The notes under the pieces: generated by a model
What the model was told of the DNA's origin: nothing
Database searches by the model: none
Seen by the model: only the letters and a program-made list of their open reading frames with translations
Position numbers and translations under genes: made by a program
From: a virus
IMG/VR virus record: IMGVR_UViG_3300042312_000042
Span: 1-25,969 of that record
Length of the DNA stretch: 25,969 nt
Direction: 5' to 3' (one strand)
Shown: in pieces, positions 12,895-25,969 of the stretch
How the letters are laid out: every line of letters starts with the position of its first letter
Position numbering within the stretch: the stretch's first letter is position 1

Positions 12895-13527
12895 TTAAAC
12901 TTCTTCCAGTGTTACCGATATATTCCAAAGATCATGATTTGTTGCCCCACGTTTTACAACAGAATAATTAAAATCTGCAAAATAAACTTGAATAATTTGA
13001 TTATATTTATTTAAATGACTGAATTCTGTGCCCTTGGTAAAGTTTGTATATTTATCATAAGCAAGATACATCCAAAAAGGACCTTGGTGTGTTTCATACC
13101 AATCAAGCAACTCTACTCCGCCTGCACCACCATCTGCTGTATACTCTGCTGTAGATCCTTCGTTTGGCGCTATACCTGACTCTTCATTAAAATTTGCTAA
13201 TCCCGAATAACCTCGTGAAGGCAACATATTCCAAGATACAGACATATTTAGTTTATCTGCAATATGATATGAACGCATACGACCATTAATTGTTCTTTGA
13301 CGTTGCTCAATTCTTTGGGTATTAAATTGCATATCTCCTCTATTGTGATCAGACAAGATAATAAATTGATCTAATAAATCTGGATCTGTTTCATCTGTAT
13401 CTGCTCCTACCTCTATGCCATTGGGCACATATAGGCCATTAGAGAGGGTTCCAGGATTGTTTGCCCATAATATACCCTGTGGTCTTGCATATCTGCGTCT
13501 GCCTATTAAATAGGCGCTAGTAGCCAT
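12895..13527 (-). CDS. distal-tail-like minor tail protein (210 aa)
   Basis: It lies right after the tape measure gene, where the distal tail protein (Dit) is usually found, and would join the tube to the hub. The sequence has a beta-rich layout (RRRYARPQGILWANNP, LLDQFIILSDHNRGDMQFN, KLNMSVSWNMLPSRGY, then QIIQVYFADFNYSVVKRG and DLWNISVTLEEV). The last two strands with 'W.I.v.leEv' resemble the C-terminus of tube-like tail proteins. The ATG overlaps the tape measure stop by one base (TAATG). No enzyme motif. The role as Dit is inferred from position and strand pattern; it could be another tube-type minor tail protein. Confidence 0.65.
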   Translation of the reverse strand: MATSAYLIGRRRYARPQGILWANNPGTLSNGLYVPNGIEVGADTDETDPDLLDQFIILSDHNRGDMQFNTQRIEQRQRTINGRMRSYHIADKLNMSVSWNMLPSRGYSGLANFNEESGIAPNEGSTAEYTADGGAGGVELLDWYETHQGPFWMYLAYDKYTNFTKGTEFSHLNKYNQIIQVYFADFNYSVVKRGATNHDLWNISVTLEEV

Positions 13528-16500
13528 TATATTCTTTGCCCCCGAACTCTTTGTGAATCAACATTTTTAATTTCTTTCATTACTGCTCTAGCAATATCAT
13601 TTGCATTTGAGTTAGTTCCATTAATGCTAAATCCTAAATTATAATTATACACTGCTGTTGAGTTATCGTTCATAGATGTTGAAACATTATTAACTGGCAT
13701 TTGTGCCCCAGCCCTATTACCAATCATTGATGGATATTTTGATTCATTTAACATAGATAGTAATGGACCAAATTGCTCAGTTGCTCTTCTATTCATTACA
13801 AACTCTCCAGGAGTTAGCATTGCTGGGACGGTATCAGATCCTATACCTCCACCACGAGCAAGATATTTAGGAACCATTCCACCCATATTCATTGATTTAA
13901 TTTTGCCACCATACATTTTTCCTGGTATTTTAATTATTTGTCCTGGTTTAATTAAATTAGGATTAGTGATTTGTGGATTGGATTTAATTACATCCGAAAG
14001 GCTGACTCCTGCTGCTTTTGCAATTCCACTTAATGTATTACCAGACTTTACAGTAACGGTTGATCCCGTACCTACACTAGTTCCTGTATTAGTTCCTGTA
14101 CTAGTTCCTGTGCCTGTGCCAGTTCCAGGTCCTGCTCCAGATACAAGACCTGACAATGAGGCTAAAGACTTTTGAGCAGTAACCGCATCTGAAAGTGATT
14201 TTGCAAGTGCTGCAGCAGATCCTGCCTGACTTAAAAGTAAATCATTAAATGGTATTCCTGCTTTTTCTGCTGCATCAATAAGTTCAGCAAGACTATCAAT
14301 ATCTGTCTTGGTTTGTCCAGCATATAAAGCAGCATTTTTTAATTTATCAACTTGAGAATTTAAGGCTTGAATACTTCTGTTTGTTGCCTCAATTGAAGAC
14401 TCAATTGTTTCTTTTTGTGTTTGTAAAGTTAATAACTTGTCTCTTTCAATTTTACTAATTTGTAACTGAAGTTCTTTATTTTGTTTTTCAAGATTAACTC
14501 TTCCCAATGCTGCTATTTGAGAATCACGACTGGATGTTAAAGCATCTTTTTGTGTAGAAACTGCAGATTGGGCCTGCTCTGCTCTTGCCTCTTGAGCAAG
14601 TTGTGCAGCAGCAGATATATCTCCACGAGTAAGTGCGTCAGCAATAGATAATCTTTGTTTTTGAATATTTGCAATATCTTGATTAATTGTAGCAATTTTA
14701 TCTAAAGCCTCTATTTGTGTATTATAAGTTTGATTAATTGTATCTTCTTGCAAAGATATTGATTCAAGAGCAAAGTTATTTGCATCAATTATAGCCTGTA
14801 TTGGCTTAATTTGAGAATTTGTAATTTTTTGAATTTCATCATTAACTTTTTGTAAATTTTCTTCTTGAATTTTTAAGGCATCATTTTCTGCTTTTATTTT
14901 TGATGCAAATTGGATATCAATTATTTTATCTCTAAGATTTGCTTGTGCTTGATATTGTTCTAATTGTTTTTTAAATAAATTTGGCTTTTCCATATATTTT
15001 AATTCAGCATCAGTTTGACCTTTGATTGCTGCCTTATATTCATTAATTAATGCAATAATTTGTTTTAATGATTTGCCTTTACTATTAGCAATAACTAAAG
15101 ATGCTATTTCAGCATCATTTGATAATTCGGTTGCAGTTGCCTCATCAACTTTTGCATTACGTAATATAATATATGCGTTAGTTTGATTTTGAATTGCTTT
15201 AATTCTTTCTTTTAATGGATTTGTTTTTCCAGCAGCATTATTTGCTGCATTAGCAGCATCTTCAGCATTTTTGTCGGCTTGAACAACTTTATTAATTGCA
15301 CCAATTGTTTCATCATACAATTTTATTAATGCTTTTCTTCCTCTTTGCTGATCTTCATAATCTTTTGATGCGAGAAGTTTAAAAATTCCACTATCTTTAT
15401 CCAAAACTCCACTACTAATTAAAGCCAAAGTTTGCATTTGTAGTACTGCGCCTTTTAGATTTGCCAAAAATGGTGCCGCATCAACATTAAGTGATTTAAA
15501 TATTTCCATTAAAACAAGTTTTTGATTTTCGGCACTAAGACTTTTAGTTGTTTCTAAAATTCCAAACATTGTTGCTTCAAAATCATCTGCGCTAATTAGT
15601 CCAAGTTTAAACATTCCAGCAGCAGAATTTGAAACAGAAGATATAGTTGTACTTAGTTCAGAAAGAGATTTTTTAGCAGCATTTGACATTGTATCCAATG
15701 AGCCTGGAGTTTTACCCCCATATGCTTGCAAGAAACTATTTTTAAATCTTTTAAATAATCCTTCTGCCCCAGTAGGTCCAGTCATTAGATTTTTTTCTAA
15801 ACTTAAAATAATTGGTGCAATTTGAGTTTGAATTCCTTTAATTGATTCTGCAGAAAAGTTAAGAGATTTAACGTCTAATTTAATGCTTGTTTTACCAGCC
15901 TCTTCACGAAGTGCGTCAACAATTGTCTGAACTTGTTGTTCTGCAAAACCCTGTGCCTTTAAATTAAGGGCAAGAGTTGTAAAAGCCAACCTTGCTTCTT
16001 CTGCTGTAGCAGCAGACAATGTCTTGATAGTTGGAGCAAATTCTTTTTGGAATCCTTCGTCTGCTCTTAACCTATCTCTTGCGCTTCTTGTTTCTTTTCT
16101 AACAACTTCTCTATTTTTAAGATCAATTGGAAGTTTTGTTGGTACAATTCCAAAGAAATCACCTAGAGTTTTTACTTGTTGTGTAGTAGTTTTCATTGCA
16201 TTTGAAAGACCATAAATATATTCTAATTCTTTTTTCCTTGCGTCATTTATTAATTTAGTTGCAACAACAAATCCCGTTAAGGCAATTGCTGCTACTCCAA
16301 ACTTAAGTTTTCCAATATTTTTAATAATTCCTATAATTTTTTGACCAGTAAATAGTTGAAGTATAGATGATAGTGCAAATAGTGGTCCAGTTATTTGAAA
16401 TAGTATTTGAGAAAATTTTCCTAAATTACCGCCAGCCATAGACGCTACACCTGACAGAGCAGATAAAGCAAAGGTTCCACCCATAAATGCTTTGTTTAAT

Positions 16501-19500
16501 GAATTCATTCTTGCACCAAGTGCTTGAGTACGTTTTAATTGTTGAGTTGCAAGAAGTTGCTCTCTATTTCTTCTTGCTTTTTCTGTTATTTCTGATAATG
16601 CAACTCCAGGCATTTTTGATGTTGAAATGTTTCCTGCTACAAACCCTGGTTGGCTTGGTGAACTAAATGGAATTTTTCCTACGCCACCTTGAACTGCTGT
16701 AGTAGCAGCCTTACCCAATTGAGATCCCGCTAAAACAACATCATCTTGTCTACTTCTCATTCCTTCTTCAAGGCCACGACCAATATCTTCGCCAGTTCTT
16801 CTTGTCTTTCGTGATGGGGATGCAGTTCCTGCTGCTTTAGCAGTTGCATTAACTGCTGATGTACCAACCATTTCTCCAACTTTGGCTGCCTCTATGATAA
16901 ATTCTTTTTTAAATGCCGTGAGATCATTTCTCATTCTTGATAAAGTTGTTTTAGCATCTATAGACATTTTGTTATATATCTCTGCTGCTTGTCTACTAGT
17001 AATTCCTAATTCTTTAGCAACATTATGTGTAACAACAAACCTGCTAGATTGTGGATATGGAATGTTTTCAGGACCGACCATTTGACCTTGCATTTTTCTA
17101 TACTGACTTGGAGTTCTTTGTGTAGATTTCTTTTGTCTAACATAAGATTCTTCTGTTATTGGGATTCTTGATCCTCTAACACCTGCCCTATCAGGATCAA
17201 AAACAGTTGAAACTTGTTTCATATTGTTATATGCTTTTTCAACACGAGCATCTGTTTTTGCTACTTCTTCATATGCTTTTCTTAAAAGGTTATTAAGTTC
17301 TTCAGAAGTAATTTCTGTTTTATCTCCCAAAGTGTCAAAACCTTTAATAATTTCACTTGTTATTTGTTTATTTATTAATTTAAATTCATCAATTGAGGTT
17401 CCAGAAGAAATTAACTGTCTTTGTAATTCTATATCTCTTGTTTCGGCAAATCCTGCACCAACTAAATTTTGTTTAACTCTTTGTGTACTTGCCTTTCCTT
17501 GAGTTTGCATTAATCTATTAATCTCAGTAAATTGTGCTACTACCTGATTATCAAAAGTTGTAAATACTCTGGTTAGTCCATCTTCAAAAGACTCAACCAT
17601 TTTTCTAACATTGTTAGCAGCGGTTGTTTCTAATCCTGTAATCATTGCAAGTAGTTCTGCACCAGTCCTACTACTTTTCATACCAAAATGAGATATATCC
17701 ATTCCACCTGGAACATCAACTGCTGTTCCCAAACTTCTTCCTTTTTGATATCCAGGAATATTATCTGCAATCATCCCCTGAATTAATGGAGCATATTTCT
17801 TTGCTATTTTTGTTGGAATAACTGCTTCTCCTGGAGATAGCATTGCTGGAACAATATCTCCCGCTCCTTTTGGTCCAGGAACTGAAACAATTCCGCTTGC
17901 GAATTTTCTAACTGCCCTTCCTGGCATCATCATTCCAGGATTATTCATTGCAAAGTTTCTTGCTGCACCTGCTGCAGAATTATATGCTGCTATAAGTTTA
18001 TTTATTTGACCTACTTCAGCAGTAAATGTTTGAGTTAATGTTGCATGAGTTTGATTTAGTGAGTGTGCTGCAGCAGCAGCATCTAATTGCTCACTAGTCA
18101 TATACTGGGTTTGTTCTCCTAATATTTGACTTTGACCAGTTAGTGTTTGATAGCCCATGCGTAATCTTAAAAATAACTTAATTATATTTGCTATACCGTT
18201 TGCAAGCAAACCAAATGTCATAAGAAGGACTGGTCCAACTGCTCCAAGACCTACAGTCAATAAAGTAATAAGTCTTTTAGTCCCAGATGAGAGGTTAGCA
18301 AATTTTTCAAGTACCCCACCAACAAATTCAAGTATTGGCGTTACTGCCTCTAAAAATGCTTGACCAACTGGAATTAATGCTACTTTAAGATCTTCAACAG
18401 TCTTTTTAAATTTATTCATAGAGGATTCTGCAGTCATTCCTAATTCTTTTTCAGATAAGGCAGAAAGTTCTTCTACTGAAGAATTTGCTAAATTAAGAAC
18501 ACGAGCAGCCTGGTTTCCGTCTCTGGCTACGTTAGCAAATAATGTTGATAAACGAGCAAACTGGAACTTACCAAACATTTGTTCAATTGCCCTTGCTCTT
18601 GCTAATGGATCCAATTGATTTAATGCCTGAGCAAAACCAATTACAGTTGCTTTTAAATCACCTTTATTTTTTTCAACAATTGCAGTTGCATTAATTCCAT
18701 ATGAAGCAAGCATGTCTGATGCTTTTTTAGTTGGATTAATTAATGCTGCAAGACCAGACTTAAGTGCGTTAGCGCCTTCTGATGCATTAATTCCACCTTC
18801 TTTCATTGCTGCCATGAAAAATGCTAAATCTTTTACATCTCCACCAAGTTGTTGAATTACAGGAGCAACTTTTGGAATTGCTGTTGTAATATCATCTAAA
18901 GATACAACGGTTTGGTTTTCTACTGCGTTTAAAAAGTTAATAGAGTCTGCAAGTTTTTCAGACGACATACCAAAAGCATTTTGCAAAGATATAGTTGTTT
19001 CAAGAGCCTTTTGACTATCAACCTGACCAAGAATAGAAAGACGTGTTGCTTCTGTTGTTTGACGTTGAAGGTCTAGTCCAGAAAAACCTGCTGCTGCTGC
19101 TTCTGCTGCTAAACCAACAGTAGTAGAAACTGCAACACCATATTTAGTAAATTGTTTTCCAAGTTCTGTAATATTGTCTAGGGCTCGTTGTGTTTCTTCT
19201 TGTGGTGTAAACAAATCTCCATAAACTTTTTTAAATCTAAGCGCTTGCGCTTCCATATCCATAAATGTTTTGGTTGCTGCAGTTCCTACTGCCATTAGTG
19301 GTAGGGTAAAACCAACCATTAACTGACGACCAGCCCACTGTGTATTTTTACCAAAATTTAAAAGATTGGTAGATCCTTGTTTCATTAATTGATTAAATAA
19401 TGCTTGTTTTTGTGCTGCTAACTGAACCTTGGTTGTATAGTCATTCATGTTCAACTGTGTTGGCATAACAGCAATTGCCTTCATTGCACCGTTAGTATCA

Positions 19501-19898
19501 CGGCCCATCTTAATATACTGTGTTTGTAATCTTTTTACACGTTCTTCGGCTACCTTGCCAATTGTGTCAAATTCTGATCTAAATAATCTGCCAAATGTTT
19601 TTGTAGATGCTCCCGCATAACGGAAGTATTCCCGCATTGAAAATTTATTTTTTTCTAATGAATTAGTAAATGATTCTGCAGATGTTTTAACTGTACGCAT
19701 TTCGGCAGTAAATGAGCCGATAGCGTTAATACTATTTAAAAGATTTTTTTGTAAACCTCTTTGAGCAAGGGCTGCTGCCTCACTTGATTTGGCTATTGAG
19801 GTGTGAAACTGTGATATCTGACGTTGTAATGCTTTTAACTGTGCTAATGCATTAGACGAATCAATATTAATGTCAATATTAGCATTAACATCAGCCAT
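13527..19898 (-). CDS. tape measure protein with C-terminal LysM domain (2123 aa)
   Basis: Fills the tail tube and sets its length; acts in virion assembly and DNA entry. Residues about 200-480 match the TP901-type phage minor tail domain (GLDLQRQTTEATRLSILGQV, IPKVAPVIQQLGGDVKDLAF, MAAMKEGGINASEGANALKS). A hydrophobic helix lies at about 541-577, with others near 1136-1186 and 1200-1214. A first GDIVPAMLSPGEAVIP motif is at about 680-696 and a second (SDTVPAMLTPGEFV) near 2021-2034. ASPSRKTRRTGEDIGRG (about 1023) is another usual tape-measure motif. Residues about 1640-1870 are a long coiled coil. A Gly-Thr-rich linker precedes a LysM domain at 1947-1994. The start is ATG with a distant AGAGGTG. 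At roughly 1.5 angstrom per residue the tail would be about 300 nm. Confidence 0.95.
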   Translation of the reverse strand: MADVNANIDINIDSSNALAQLKALQRQISQFHTSIAKSSEAAALAQRGLQKNLLNSINAIGSFTAEMRTVKTSAESFTNSLEKNKFSMREYFRYAGASTKTFGRLFRSEFDTIGKVAEERVKRLQTQYIKMGRDTNGAMKAIAVMPTQLNMNDYTTKVQLAAQKQALFNQLMKQGSTNLLNFGKNTQWAGRQLMVGFTLPLMAVGTAATKTFMDMEAQALRFKKVYGDLFTPQEETQRALDNITELGKQFTKYGVAVSTTVGLAAEAAAAGFSGLDLQRQTTEATRLSILGQVDSQKALETTISLQNAFGMSSEKLADSINFLNAVENQTVVSLDDITTAIPKVAPVIQQLGGDVKDLAFFMAAMKEGGINASEGANALKSGLAALINPTKKASDMLASYGINATAIVEKNKGDLKATVIGFAQALNQLDPLARARAIEQMFGKFQFARLSTLFANVARDGNQAARVLNLANSSVEELSALSEKELGMTAESSMNKFKKTVEDLKVALIPVGQAFLEAVTPILEFVGGVLEKFANLSSGTKRLITLLTVGLGAVGPVLLMTFGLLANGIANIIKLFLRLRMGYQTLTGQSQILGEQTQYMTSEQLDAAAAAHSLNQTHATLTQTFTAEVGQINKLIAAYNSAAGAARNFAMNNPGMMMPGRAVRKFASGIVSVPGPKGAGDIVPAMLSPGEAVIPTKIAKKYAPLIQGMIADNIPGYQKGRSLGTAVDVPGGMDISHFGMKSSRTGAELLAMITGLETTAANNVRKMVESFEDGLTRVFTTFDNQVVAQFTEINRLMQTQGKASTQRVKQNLVGAGFAETRDIELQRQLISSGTSIDEFKLINKQITSEIIKGFDTLGDKTEITSEELNNLLRKAYEEVAKTDARVEKAYNNMKQVSTVFDPDRAGVRGSRIPITEESYVRQKKSTQRTPSQYRKMQGQMVGPENIPYPQSSRFVVTHNVAKELGITSRQAAEIYNKMSIDAKTTLSRMRNDLTAFKKEFIIEAAKVGEMVGTSAVNATAKAAGTASPSRKTRRTGEDIGRGLEEGMRSRQDDVVLAGSQLGKAATTAVQGGVGKIPFSSPSQPGFVAGNISTSKMPGVALSEITEKARRNREQLLATQQLKRTQALGARMNSLNKAFMGGTFALSALSGVASMAGGNLGKFSQILFQITGPLFALSSILQLFTGQKIIGIIKNIGKLKFGVAAIALTGFVVATKLINDARKKELEYIYGLSNAMKTTTQQVKTLGDFFGIVPTKLPIDLKNREVVRKETRSARDRLRADEGFQKEFAPTIKTLSAATAEEARLAFTTLALNLKAQGFAEQQVQTIVDALREEAGKTSIKLDVKSLNFSAESIKGIQTQIAPIILSLEKNLMTGPTGAEGLFKRFKNSFLQAYGGKTPGSLDTMSNAAKKSLSELSTTISSVSNSAAGMFKLGLISADDFEATMFGILETTKSLSAENQKLVLMEIFKSLNVDAAPFLANLKGAVLQMQTLALISSGVLDKDSGIFKLLASKDYEDQQRGRKALIKLYDETIGAINKVVQADKNAEDAANAANNAAGKTNPLKERIKAIQNQTNAYIILRNAKVDEATATELSNDAEIASLVIANSKGKSLKQIIALINEYKAAIKGQTDAELKYMEKPNLFKKQLEQYQAQANLRDKIIDIQFASKIKAENDALKIQEENLQKVNDEIQKITNSQIKPIQAIIDANNFALESISLQEDTINQTYNTQIEALDKIATINQDIANIQKQRLSIADALTRGDISAAAQLAQEARAEQAQSAVSTQKDALTSSRDSQIAALGRVNLEKQNKELQLQISKIERDKLLTLQTQKETIESSIEATNRSIQALNSQVDKLKNAALYAGQTKTDIDSLAELIDAAEKAGIPFNDLLLSQAGSAAALAKSLSDAVTAQKSLASLSGLVSGAGPGTGTGTGTSTGTNTGTSVGTGSTVTVKSGNTLSGIAKAAGVSLSDVIKSNPQITNPNLIKPGQIIKIPGKMYGGKIKSMNMGGMVPKYLARGGGIGSDTVPAMLTPGEFVMNRRATEQFGPLLSMLNESKYPSMIGNRAGAQMPVNNVSTSMNDNSTAVYNYNLGFSINGTNSNANDIARAVMKEIKNVDSQRVRGQRI
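13917..14060 (-). other. LysM domain within the tape measure protein
   Basis: Residues 1947-1994 read TVTVKSGNTLSGIAKAAGVS followed by LSDVIKSNP and NLIKPGQIIKIP, the full LysM pattern (V..GdtL..Ia...gvs...l...N......l..Gq.l.iP). LysM binds N-acetylglucosamine in peptidoglycan, so the tail could grip the cell wall during DNA entry. Confidence 0.93.
14076..14133 (-). repeat. 12-base tandem repeat coding a Gly-Thr linker
   Basis: On the plus strand actagttcctgt, attagttcctgt and actagttcctgt follow one another at 14076-14111, then decay into related gcctgtgccagttcc sequence. They code for the GTGTST/GTNTGT-type linker before LysM. Copy number is prone to change by slippage without shifting the frame. 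Confidence 0.85.
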
Positions 19899-19920: not shown

Positions 19921-20250
19921 TTATTCAGCCATAGTTACGCCAAGAACGTCAGAAACTTCAGCAAGTTTAATACCTGATGCTGCTTCTACAATCTTGTAAA
20001 CAGTTGGGAGATCAATATTCTCCTCTAGTTTTTTTACGTCTTCAGAGAGTTCTGGCTTGTATTGTTTCATTGCAATCTGTACACATTCCATAAGAATGTC
20101 CATAGACTTTCCATTATCTTCCGCCACTGCTCCCACACCCTCAAACTTCTTCATAAATGGACGAAGTAGAGAGATTTTTAGAGGACGTACTGTAACTTTT
20201 GTGCCATCAATCAATGTAAGAGTATTTTCCTCATACGTAGTTGTTGCCAT
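19921..20250 (-). CDS. tail assembly chaperone, short form (gpG-like, 109 aa)
   Basis: Chaperone that would bind the tape measure during tail assembly. Its whole length is homologous to the N-terminal half of the next gene upstream (20308-21003): both begin MATT.Y, share LIDGT, PLKI, LR.FM..FE, ECV.I.MKQY.PE and D.PT.Y.I, with about 40 identical residues in the first 96 by eye. It has no gpT-type C-terminal domain, and the 22 bases before the tape measure leave no room for one by frameshift. The ATG has a perfect AGGAGG five bases upstream (20256-20261), a TGCTATAAT promoter candidate lies before that, and the codons are less AT-biased than in the long form. All this fits the high copy number expected of gpG. 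Confidence 0.85.
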   Translation of the reverse strand: MATTTYEENTLTLIDGTKVTVRPLKISLLRPFMKKFEGVGAVAEDNGKSMDILMECVQIAMKQYKPELSEDVKKLEENIDLPTVYKIVEAASGIKLAEVSDVLGVTMAE

Positions 20251-20255
20251 GATTT

Positions 20256-20261
20256 CCTCCT
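20256..20261 (-). promoter_or_regulatory. strong Shine-Dalgarno of the short chaperone gene
   Basis: AGGAGG with a five-base gap to the ATG at 20250. It contrasts with the long chaperone gene, which lacks any such site. Confidence 0.8.
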
Positions 20262-20274
20262 ATAGGTTATGTCA

Positions 20275-20283
20275 ATTATAGCA
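20275..20283 (-). promoter_or_regulatory. extended -10 promoter candidate for the short chaperone gene
   Basis: The minus strand reads TGCTATAAT, a full TGnTATAAT extended -10 box, in the 57-base gap between the two chaperone genes. No good -35 box is seen at 17 bases. Initiation about 7 bases on would leave a short leader holding the AGGAGG site. Confidence 0.5.
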
Positions 20284-20307
20284 TGGTGATACTTATTTTT
20301 TACTATT

Positions 20308-21003
20308 TTATTTTGTTAAATCTTCATACTCTAAGCCCATGCCAATACCAAACCCAGCACTTTTGGCATTTTGACCTTGAAGGGCTAATATGTCTTTACT
20401 ATCACTTGTTTTACCTTTACTAAATACTCTGGCTTTCATGTCTTCCCATTCTTTTTGACCTCTTGAAGATCCAGACTGTTTTTCTAAATCTACCCCTTGA
20501 ATTGCAGCAAGAAATTTTTTTTCCTCATAATCAAGTTCTCTACGACTAGAAAGGGTCGCCATAAGTTCTGGCATAGACAGCGATTCTTCTAACTCTTTGT
20601 AATCTTTCCAAATACCTATTAAAAATACCTCAGCCTCAATTTTTGCTAAATCTAGATCTGACCATGTGGCGCCACTATCTTCTGCTTGATTTTTAACTGT
20701 TTGACTTGATTTTTCATTTATTTTAATTCCCGCTGAAACATCTAAAATTGTATATATTGTTGGCATATCTAAACTATCCTCTATATCAGATTTTGTCAAT
20801 GTTATTTCTGGATAATATTGTTTCATTGTAATTCTTACGCATTCTATTAAATAATCTACAGCCTCATCATCATTTTTGGCTTTTTTGACATACTCAAACA
20901 CTTCCATAAATTCACGTAAATATTTTATTTTTAATGGCATAATTTCTAATTCTGTGCCATCAATAAGTTTTATTATTTTATTTTGATAAACGGTTGTTGC
21001 CAT
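20308..21003 (-). CDS. tail assembly chaperone, long form (gpGT-like, 231 aa) in one continuous frame
   Basis: The first ~100 residues match the short chaperone; the rest is a gpT-type domain with LAKIEAEVFLIGIWKDYKEL, SMPELMATLSSRRELDYEEK and KFLAAIQGVDLEKQ, patterns typical of actinophage tail chaperones, ending in GFGIGMGLEYEDL. In most siphoviruses this long product is made by a -1 frameshift from the gpG gene; here the fused protein is encoded without a shift. I saw no clear slippery heptamer at the junction (around 20690-20720). The gene has no Shine-Dalgarno; a TGATAGAAT box ends nine bases before the ATG, so the mRNA may be leaderless. Codons are strongly AT-ending (TTA, AAA, ATA), unlike those of the short form. 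It follows a terminator after the major tail protein gene. Confidence 0.85.
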   Translation of the reverse strand: MATTVYQNKIIKLIDGTELEIMPLKIKYLREFMEVFEYVKKAKNDDEAVDYLIECVRITMKQYYPEITLTKSDIEDSLDMPTIYTILDVSAGIKINEKSSQTVKNQAEDSGATWSDLDLAKIEAEVFLIGIWKDYKELEESLSMPELMATLSSRRELDYEEKKFLAAIQGVDLEKQSGSSRGQKEWEDMKARVFSKGKTSDSKDILALQGQNAKSAGFGIGMGLEYEDLTK

Positions 21004-21012
21004 GATTTATCT

Positions 21013-21021
21013 ATTCTATCA
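21013..21021 (-). promoter_or_regulatory. extended -10 promoter candidate giving a near-leaderless long-chaperone mRNA
   Basis: The minus strand reads TGATAGAAT (TGn plus a TAnnnT -10 box). It ends nine bases before the ATG at 21003, so a normal start point falls at or within a few bases of the ATG. No Shine-Dalgarno is present. It lies just downstream of the terminator at 21031-21058. Confidence 0.45.
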
Positions 21022-21030
21022 TAAGCAAAA

Positions 21031-21058
21031 CAAAAAACCCACCTCATAAGAGATGGGC
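21031..21058 (-). terminator. intrinsic terminator after the major tail protein gene
   Basis: The minus strand forms CCCATCTC-TTAT-GAGGTGGG, an 8-bp stem with one G-T pair and a 4-base loop, followed directly by TTTTTT (21032-21037). It would end most transcripts of the major tail protein gene and separate it from the chaperones. Confidence 0.85.
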
Positions 21059-21080
21059 CTTTGTTTAATCTAAAATTAGA

Positions 21081-21713
21081 TTATGATTGACCAAATGTAC
21101 GATCTACGATCTTTCCATATGATCCTGATACATCTTCTGGTAGAAGACGGAATGAAACTTCAAACATTGACGCTTCGTCACGTTTTGCGGATACAGTTAC
21201 GTTCTCAATTGATAGAGCACGATATGCTGTGTAAACACGCTCAACAGTGTCAGAGTTGTCGCAATCTCCAGTTCCTGGTCCAACAGCAACGATTCCTCGT
21301 TCTACTGGACATTCTCCAAGTTCACCTGCAGATAGATTAAGTGTCTGACCTGTAGATGCTGCCTTGTTTCCTGTAAGTTGTGCATCAGAGAATGCTAATG
21401 CAAGAAGCAAGTTTTCTAGGGTTGCTTCAGCAAAAGCGGTAGCAAGATTAACCTGCATACCTTGCTTATATAGTTTTGCAACGTCAAGAATTTGATCTAC
21501 CTGGACTTCACCGAAATCTGGTTGGAACTGTAATTCTAAACCGTTCATGGTATAACCTACGTTAGTGTACGTTGCATCTGCTGAAAGTGTATCTTTAAAA
21601 GACTCACTTGCATCAAAACCCTCCAGTGTACCTGGAGTCAAAGTTGTATCAGCAACGAAAAGTGCTGCTGCACCAACGATAATGTTGTTTGACGTACCAC
21701 GGCTATATGGCAT
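21081..21713 (-). CDS. major tail (tube) protein (210 aa)
   Basis: Forms the stacked rings of the tail tube. It lies between the tail-terminator candidate and the chaperones, its usual place. The sequence is acidic and beta-rich with one central helix (VDQILDVAKLYKQGMQVNLA, ENLLLALAFSDAQL). It ends with a beta hairpin, ASMFEVSFRLLPEDVSGSYG, of the kind seen at the end of tube proteins. Two Cys flank an inserted loop (ECPVERG ... GDCDNSD). Codons are more GC-ending (AAC, TTC, CGT) than those of the minor tail genes, as expected of an abundant protein. The ATG has GAGGTGA upstream (about 21720-21726). The gene is bounded by a promoter candidate and a terminator. Confidence 0.85.
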   Translation of the reverse strand: MPYSRGTSNNIIVGAAALFVADTTLTPGTLEGFDASESFKDTLSADATYTNVGYTMNGLELQFQPDFGEVQVDQILDVAKLYKQGMQVNLATAFAEATLENLLLALAFSDAQLTGNKAASTGQTLNLSAGELGECPVERGIVAVGPGTGDCDNSDTVERVYTAYRALSIENVTVSAKRDEASMFEVSFRLLPEDVSGSYGKIVDRTFGQS

Positions 21714-24528: not shown

Positions 24529-24884
24529 TAGTCTTTACGGTAATAAGATGCTACCTCTTCAGGTGACGCTATGCGTACCAATCTGTGAGTTAGCCACTTT
24601 TCCGATGCCTCCTTTGATACTATGTTATACCCCACCTTTAAAGCACCAAGATTATCCATGTGAAGATTTTTATCTGAATATAGTGCTATTTTATTTGTTA
24701 AATTTTCAACCTTGTTTGCTTCCTCTACACGCTCTTCTGTTTTTTCTGGCGGAATCCAACTAGCCAAAATTTCTAAAATTTCAAGTTTAGTATTTGCTTC
24801 AAACAATTCAATATTATTTTTCTTTGCATATGCCTTTAATGCCATTACAGTTTTAGTTGATAATTCTTCTATTGTTAAACTCAT
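24528..24884 (-). CDS. small SAP/HeH-like protein after the capsid gene (118 aa)
   Basis: Residues 1-43 (SLTIEELSTKTVMALKAYAK, then NNIELFEANTKLEILEILAS) form the helix-extended loop-helix of SAP, LEM or Rho-N-like domains, often nucleic-acid binding. Proteins with this domain often follow the major capsid gene in actinophages. The C-terminal half (HMDNLGALKVGYNIVSKEAS, then HRLVRIASPEEVASYY) is a small alpha/beta unit suggestive of a head or neck part. The ATG has AGGAGA four bases upstream, and a good extended -10 box precedes it. A role in DNA packaging or head completion is possible but not shown. Confidence 0.65.
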   Translation of the reverse strand: MSLTIEELSTKTVMALKAYAKKNNIELFEANTKLEILEILASWIPPEKTEERVEEANKVENLTNKIALYSDKNLHMDNLGALKVGYNIVSKEASEKWLTHRLVRIASPEEVASYYRKD

Positions 24885-24976: not shown

Positions 24977-25969
24977 TTAGGAATCAGCGCTATCTGAGTC
25001 AACATAAGCGACTGCATCTAGTTCTTCCCATTGGATACCAAATCGTACAAATACTGTGTACTCAATTGTATCTTTCTTTGGCTTGTATTCACGGTTTACA
25101 GTGATGTCTCTCTGGAAACCCCATACACGGTTCTGAGGGAATGTTAAATCAACATAACCTGCAGGGTAGTAAGGAACTTCTAGAACATCTACACCTAGTA
25201 CACGAGTTGTACGTGAGTTACCAAATGTCTGTGCATTTCCATCAAGGTAATCTTGACGGTTTGCTTGAGTGCTACCAGTGCGATCTGAGAACGCTTGTGA
25301 AATAGCATCTGCTAATGTACCGTTGTTACGAACAATACCAGCAAAAGCATCAGTACCTGCGTAGAACTTAAGATTGCTCTTAAGTGCACGATACTTACGA
25401 GGCATTGCTAATAGCAAGCCTTGCATTACTGATGTTGTGTAGTTGTTGTCTGAAACTGTTGCAGCATATTCGTGAGCATCGTTTCCGACTGTTCCACGAG
25501 TTTGCTTTACGAATCCAGCCATAATAGAAAGGAAGGCATCTGAGCCTGTTCCTAGACCATTAATAGCAAGGTCTTCAATATCGTTAGCGAATGCATTGGT
25601 CATTAAGCGAACTAAATGATCTTCAAGTGCTCCACCTTCAATATTGTCTTCTAGTGCTTCAGTTGATACTTCCCAATCAAGACGAATCTTTTTGGTTGTT
25701 AGTTCAACTTTTGTAAAGGTTGCGCCGATGTTTGTATAATCTGGTGCGCCTTGAGCAGCAGCACGAATTACACGTTCACCAACATTTACCTTTTCAATTT
25801 CCATGGTGTTTGCTCTCATGGTGACACGACGGCCATCCTTAGCGAGGACAGTTGCATCCCATACGTAGTCAATAAAACGACGTGCTTGTTCTGGTGCTAG
25901 AATACCACCTGCAACACCTGTTGGATTTACTGCATTTGCTCCAGTTGTTGAACCGAATGCTGCAGTTGC
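24977..25969 (-). CDS. major capsid protein, HK97 fold, 5' end cut by window edge
   Basis: Forms the icosahedral head shell. The frame is open to the window edge (330 codons seen). The ATG at 25819 is internal: the 50 codons before it code for AFGSTTGANAVNPTG, GGILAPEQARRFIDY and VWDATVLAKDG, which belong to the N-arm and E-loop region of actinophage capsid proteins. Then come RAAAQGAPDYTNIG, KKIRLDWEVSTEALEDNIEG, HLVRLMTNAFANDIEDLAIN, GLGTGSDAFLSIMAGF, the A-domain NRVWGFQRDITVNREYKPKK, and the C-terminal TVFVRFGIQWEELDAVAYV. Codons are GC-ending more often (AAC, TAC, GAC, CGT) than in other genes, typical of the most abundant protein. A terminator follows the stop. Confidence 0.9.
   Translation of the reverse strand, partial: ATAAFGSTTGANAVNPTGVAGGILAPEQARRFIDYVWDATVLAKDGRRVTMRANTMEIEKVNVGERVIRAAAQGAPDYTNIGATFTKVELTTKKIRLDWEVSTEALEDNIEGGALEDHLVRLMTNAFANDIEDLAINGLGTGSDAFLSIMAGFVKQTRGTVGNDAHEYAATVSDNNYTTSVMQGLLLAMPRKYRALKSNLKFYAGTDAFAGIVRNNGTLADAISQAFSDRTGSTQANRQDYLDGNAQTFGNSRTTRVLGVDVLEVPYYPAGYVDLTFPQNRVWGFQRDITVNREYKPKKDTIEYTVFVRFGIQWEELDAVAYVDSDSADS

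Follow-up and report, generated by a model that had tools for sequence, protein, structure and literature searches.

How does a long-tailed phage obtain a short and a long form of its tail assembly chaperone when the locus offers no site for ribosomal slippage? It is commonly held that frameshifting at the tail chaperone genes is conserved very widely. The stretch of viral DNA analysed here (the window: IMG/VR record IMGVR_UViG_3300042312_000042, 25,969 bp) has two homologous genes where such a phage would have one frameshifted locus. An earlier note, made from the sequence of the window, had suggested that gene duplication took the place of translational recoding, and that the dosage of the two forms came to be set by initiation. 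Our analysis bears on both parts of this proposal, the origin of the two genes and the control of their products.

Two paralogous genes between the tail genes

The tail module of the window lies on the minus strand, in the coding order major tail protein (MTP), terminator, long gene, short gene, tape measure protein (TMP). The probable MTP gene (21081..21713, 210 aa) lies immediately upstream of the chaperone genes; it matches phrog_2175 strongly and phrog_885 weakly, and its place corresponds to that of the annotated major tail protein in Streptomyces phage Circinus. The MTP gene is separated by an intrinsic terminator (21033..21062; 13-pair stem, 4-nt loop and T-run) from the long gene (20308..21003, 231 aa), which is followed by the short gene (19921..20250, 109 aa); both open reading frames are where the earlier note had placed them. 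The TMP gene (13527..19898, 2123 aa) matches Pfam PhageMin_Tail (PF10145, E 7.8e-26), and residues 1949-1992 of its product form a LysM domain. Both genes of interest are thus located between the MTP and TMP genes, as tail assembly chaperone genes are. Just before the TMP start, the 3' end of the short gene (19921-19966) has, across relatives, a synonymous conservation about 0.3 above expectation. No tRNAs were found in the window.

The similarity between the two products, which had been estimated by eye, is clear in pairwise comparison (45 identities in 100 positions, E 2e-29) and in the comparison of family profiles (99.9% probability, E 4.7e-37), where a failure to align would, by the earlier note, have refuted its proposal. 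On these alignments the two genes are paralogues, and the short and long forms have a common N-terminal domain, as expected of this class of chaperones. We call this domain G (residues 1-100 of the long protein, 20704..21003; 45% identity to the short protein). The rest of the long protein, T (about residues 113-231, 20311..20667), is homologous to an open reading frame that other phages encode in the -1 frame relative to G, and the short protein is homologous to the G of these phages. W114, F127, G130, W132 and other T residues are invariant across both types of locus. The N-terminal half of the long protein (E 2.8e-23) and the short protein (E 1.9e-21) match phrog_10504, and the C-terminal half of the long protein matches phrog_10474 (E 3.8e-14). 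Both are families without a named function, and Pfam has no significant family for either protein; homologues in Streptomyces Stanwilliamsviridae carry the annotation "tail assembly chaperone". The predicted model of the long protein is of moderate quality (pLDDT 70), with a G domain made of a beta-hairpin plus helices (pLDDT about 85), and that of the short protein is poor (pLDDT 53). No solved structure in the PDB matched either protein by sequence or by fold; a Foldseek search with the long model retrieved the predicted chaperones of N15, 6ec and EfaCPT1 with probabilities of 0.91-0.98 but E-values of only 0.001-0.05. We infer from this ensemble that both proteins are chaperones.

The window shares its tail module and gene order with Stanwilliamsviridae. 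A scan of genome contigs returned no prophage or host-genome copies from whose flanks hosts might be read. The presence of WhiB genes in seven of nine long contigs suggests actinobacterial hosts and, together with the LysM-bearing TMP, points to phages of siphovirus morphology infecting such bacteria.

Two architectures among relatives

In all 90 distinct complete IMG/VR relatives of the window's group, G and T are fused in one gene and a second gene, with G alone, follows; the long gene is a single open frame in the window and in every one of them. The count covers complete loci; two further contigs (L059 and L079) end after the long gene. The short gene is split over two frames in one contig (L046/L124), probably by a sequence error. 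In two loci, the long and short genes are parted by an inserted open reading frame of 209 or 215 aa that resembles a SAM-dependent methyltransferase (L014:4697-5472 and L024:4697-5477), and there the short gene retains its own -10 and Shine-Dalgarno despite the insertion.

A profile scan reached a second group, which includes the Streptomyces Stanwilliamsviridae; each of its 65 distinct loci has one single G gene, which overlaps a T in the -1 frame. The frameshift-type relatives that the earlier note had suggested looking for do exist, and their slippery heptamer is conserved in 63 of the 65 loci, as C_CCA_AAC (52) or C_CCA_AAT (11). The two exceptions are Jay2Jay-type Streptomyces phages (L164 and L180), with CCCGGAA at this place and T still in the -1 frame. 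The combination known from lambda, a slippery heptamer with T in the -1 frame, is therefore present in 63 of the 65 frameshift-type loci and absent from the window and its 90 relatives. Many GenBank records of Stanwilliamsviridae annotate T as a separate hypothetical protein, unjoined to G, despite the conserved -1 slippery site of the Circinus type. The neighbouring genes are the same in both architectures, which are flanked by MTP and TMP: an MTP homologue lies directly upstream in 86 of 90 fused and 65 of 65 frameshift-type loci, and a TMP homologue downstream in 86 of the 90 fused ones. The number of G domains follows the architecture, with exactly two copies in each of five two-gene contigs (80-92 kb) and one in each of four frameshift-type contigs (82-130 kb). 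Among all loci fetched, none was intermediate, whether by a slippery site in a fused gene or by a second G in a frameshift locus.

The two-gene state occupies one side of a single branch in the trees of T (support 92), MTP (100) and TMP (100). In the G tree, the domains of the long, short and frameshift-type proteins each form one group; long and short domains are sister clades (100/97 for the two together, 99/96 for the short clade). A single duplication that preceded the diversification of the two-gene clade, without subsequent exchange between the copies, would give this pattern. The long G domain has since evolved faster than the short one (mean pairwise identity of 0.63 vs 0.75). The linker of the fused protein (GIKINEKSS...) begins like the predicted slippage product of the other group (GVKLNDPNSS...), and extra residues precede the conserved Trp. 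All these trees are unrooted, so the direction of change rests on parsimony, which, together with the wide occurrence of frameshifting at this locus in long-tailed phages (PMC5009743), points to frameshifting as the ancestral state. Most likely, then, one duplication plus an in-frame fusion replaced frameshifting. The proposal that a duplication stands in place of programmed frameshifting is well supported, both by the relatives with the conserved heptamer and by trees that fit a single event.

Start signals and the control of dosage

The expectation of an excess of the short form had been based on three signals, two of which distinguish the genes in most relatives as well. The short gene of the window has a perfect Shine-Dalgarno AGGAGG (20256..20261) with a duplex energy of -10.2 kcal/mol, vs +0.2 kcal/mol for the long gene. 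Across the 90 relatives the medians are -10.2 and 0.0 kcal/mol, the latter weaker than shuffled sequence (-2.8). The short gene also has less AT-biased codons: GC3 is 0.28 vs 0.19 for the long gene in the window, and 86 of 90 relatives have a difference in the same direction. The third signal, a promoter of its own, is present in the short gene as the extended -10 TGCTATAAT (20275..20283, 24 nt before the ATG), with TGnTATAAT 23-35 nt upstream in 90 of 90 loci. However, an extended -10 of its own, TGATAGAAT (21013..21021), precedes the long gene too, so that this signal is common to both genes.

What sets the long gene apart is the position of this element, which ends 9 nt before the ATG in the window and 6-9 nt before it in 88 of 90 loci. 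In a thinned set, TnTGnTAnAAT is invariant in 42 of 45 loci, 5-9 nt before the ATG and with a variable spacer, and occurs at the same distance in 1% of shuffles and in 6 of 259 other ORFs. With a -10 so near the ATG, the transcript should start at the ATG or a few bases before it, and the long mRNA is therefore probably leaderless; transcription start sites are here those implied by the promoter elements. The G genes of frameshift-type loci have the same -10 and leader layout as the short gene. A terminator lies between the MTP and long genes in 88 of 90 fused and 62 of 65 frameshift-type loci, vs about 1% of shuffles. None was found between the long and short genes in 87 loci, and transcription from either promoter should therefore cover the short gene. 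Elsewhere in the window, a strong GC-rich inverted repeat (24954-24907, minus strand) followed by TGGTATAAT, between the capsid gene (ending at 24977) and the next gene (starting at 24884), repeats the terminator-plus-extended -10 layout found after MTP.

The idea that dosage is set by initiation would thus account for only a part of the control. The genes differ mainly in how they start, the long one nearly without a leader and the short one with a leader and a strong Shine-Dalgarno, but both have promoters of their own and a terminator shields the long gene from MTP transcription. Transcription and initiation together probably set the dosage. The pattern of terminator, -10, Shine-Dalgarno and GC3 would favour more short than long protein, the ratio itself being deduced from these signals. 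In mycobacteria, transcripts without a leader are not translated systematically less well (PMC7148126). Weak translation of leaderless mRNAs is no fixed rule in actinobacteria, and a low level of the long protein is thus not assured.

Alternatives, implications and known systems

Metagenomic contigs can contain frame errors, and an error of assembly or sequencing might have joined G and T beside an unrelated small protein. We ruled this out, and hold it to be scarcely conceivable, because 90 distinct sequences, with identities of the long protein as low as 47%, have this fused frame, and the second G is homologous (E 2e-29). A genuine fusion could still make the short product by recoding elsewhere, leaving the 109-aa protein as an extra paralogue with a different job, and 53 of 90 long genes do have A_AAA_AAA or A_AAA_AAG at codon 160, where GAA AAA is used for the Glu-Lys-Lys in 50 of 67 genes vs 58% expected. 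But this site lies inside T, so that no G-sized product is possible and slippage would yield one of roughly 160 aa. A functional slippery site in the long gene was also what the earlier note had named as evidence against its proposal, and heptamers are in no excess there (2.19 per gene vs 2.09 expected from codon shuffling). Across the 90 relatives none is conserved at or near the G-T junction, C_CCA_AAY is gone from the long gene, and CCCAAA occurs in 3 of 90 long and 0 of 90 short genes. We rejected residual frameshifting in the long gene for these reasons, and consider such recoding quite improbable. We give just as little credence to the reverse history, in which the two-gene state is ancestral and frameshift-type phages derive from it by loss of the short gene. 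Unrooted trees do not formally fix the direction, but frameshifting is widespread at the tail chaperone locus of long-tailed phages (PMC5009743), the reversal needs three changes together, namely the loss of a gene, a break in the frame and the emergence of a canonical slippery site, and frameshift-type phages have the promoter and leader layout of the short gene.

Somewhat less improbable, if still unlikely, is that there is no fixed excess of the short form and that the two proteins diverged into separate partners, e.g. in a heteromer, each binding a different stretch of the TMP. In favour of this, identity between the paralogues is just 45%, their clades are distinct and show no trace of exchange, evolution is quicker in the long G domain, and translation does not follow from leader status alone (PMC7148126). 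Yet in the relatives the short gene has the advantage in GC3, in Shine-Dalgarno and in -10 consensus, as would be expected in a system with G in excess.

We therefore favour, with a probability of roughly 0.8, the reading that a two-gene tail chaperone locus replaced -1 programmed frameshifting, with the excess of the short form arising from gene structure. The duplication would have affected an ancestral gene for G whose T lay in the -1 frame and was reached via slippage at C_CCA_AAY; one copy would have become the in-frame G-T fusion that encodes the 231-aa protein, and the other would have kept G alone as the 109-aa protein. By analogy with lambda, both G domains should bind the TMP, and T should recruit the MTP. 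The long gene would be expressed behind a terminator, from a non-consensus extended -10, with a transcript starting at or near the ATG and without Shine-Dalgarno. The long transcript would include the short gene, which would also be transcribed from a consensus extended -10 of its own and has AGGAGG as a strong Shine-Dalgarno; the excess of short over long protein would then arise from the structure of the genes. We are more tentative, at somewhat less than even odds, about the narrower claim that control of the short:long ratio was taken over from ribosomal slippage by two mRNAs with opposite kinds of start, the long one leaderless and the short one led by a Shine-Dalgarno. If this were true, the ratio would vary with how the host balances leaderless against leadered initiation. 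Slippage and the two genes are one step apart in related phages whose neighbouring genes are the same, so that the need for slippage becomes directly testable: is the ratio alone enough, or must the short and the long form also be made by a single ribosome pool? A concrete prediction for how the ratio would be kept comes from the conserved contrast between start sites.

The two-gene solution is already known, in that some T4-like phages are described, in the passage of PMC10885494 that cites Vladimirov, Gautam and Davidson (2022, Virology 566:9-15), as having one short gene and one longer fusion gene without frameshifting. Compared by this description only, the arrangement is the same as in the window, a short gene and a separate long fusion gene. 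The phages of the window's group differ from T4-like ones in being relatives of Stanwilliamsviridae, with probably actinobacterial hosts, in having known frameshift-type relatives with an intact slippery site, and in a long gene that appears leaderless; no named T4-like phage was among the database homologue matches of the chaperones. Lambda gpG and gpGT (PMC5009743) are likewise a short and a long form with a common N-terminal domain, encoded between the MTP and TMP genes, but the window lacks both the slippery site and the -1 frame T ORF and has the two forms encoded by two genes. The closest comparison is with Stanwilliamsviridae (Circinus and Jay2Jay) and the environmental loci L165-L247, with homologous G and T, the same neighbours and the same module of terminator and extended -10. 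These differ in having one G gene and T in the -1 frame, mostly with C_CCA_AAC/T and with CCCGGAA in the Jay2Jay type. As far as our searches extend, what appears to be new is an independent case in actinophage-like siphoviruses, with frameshift-type relatives for comparison and a pattern of leaderless vs leadered starts.
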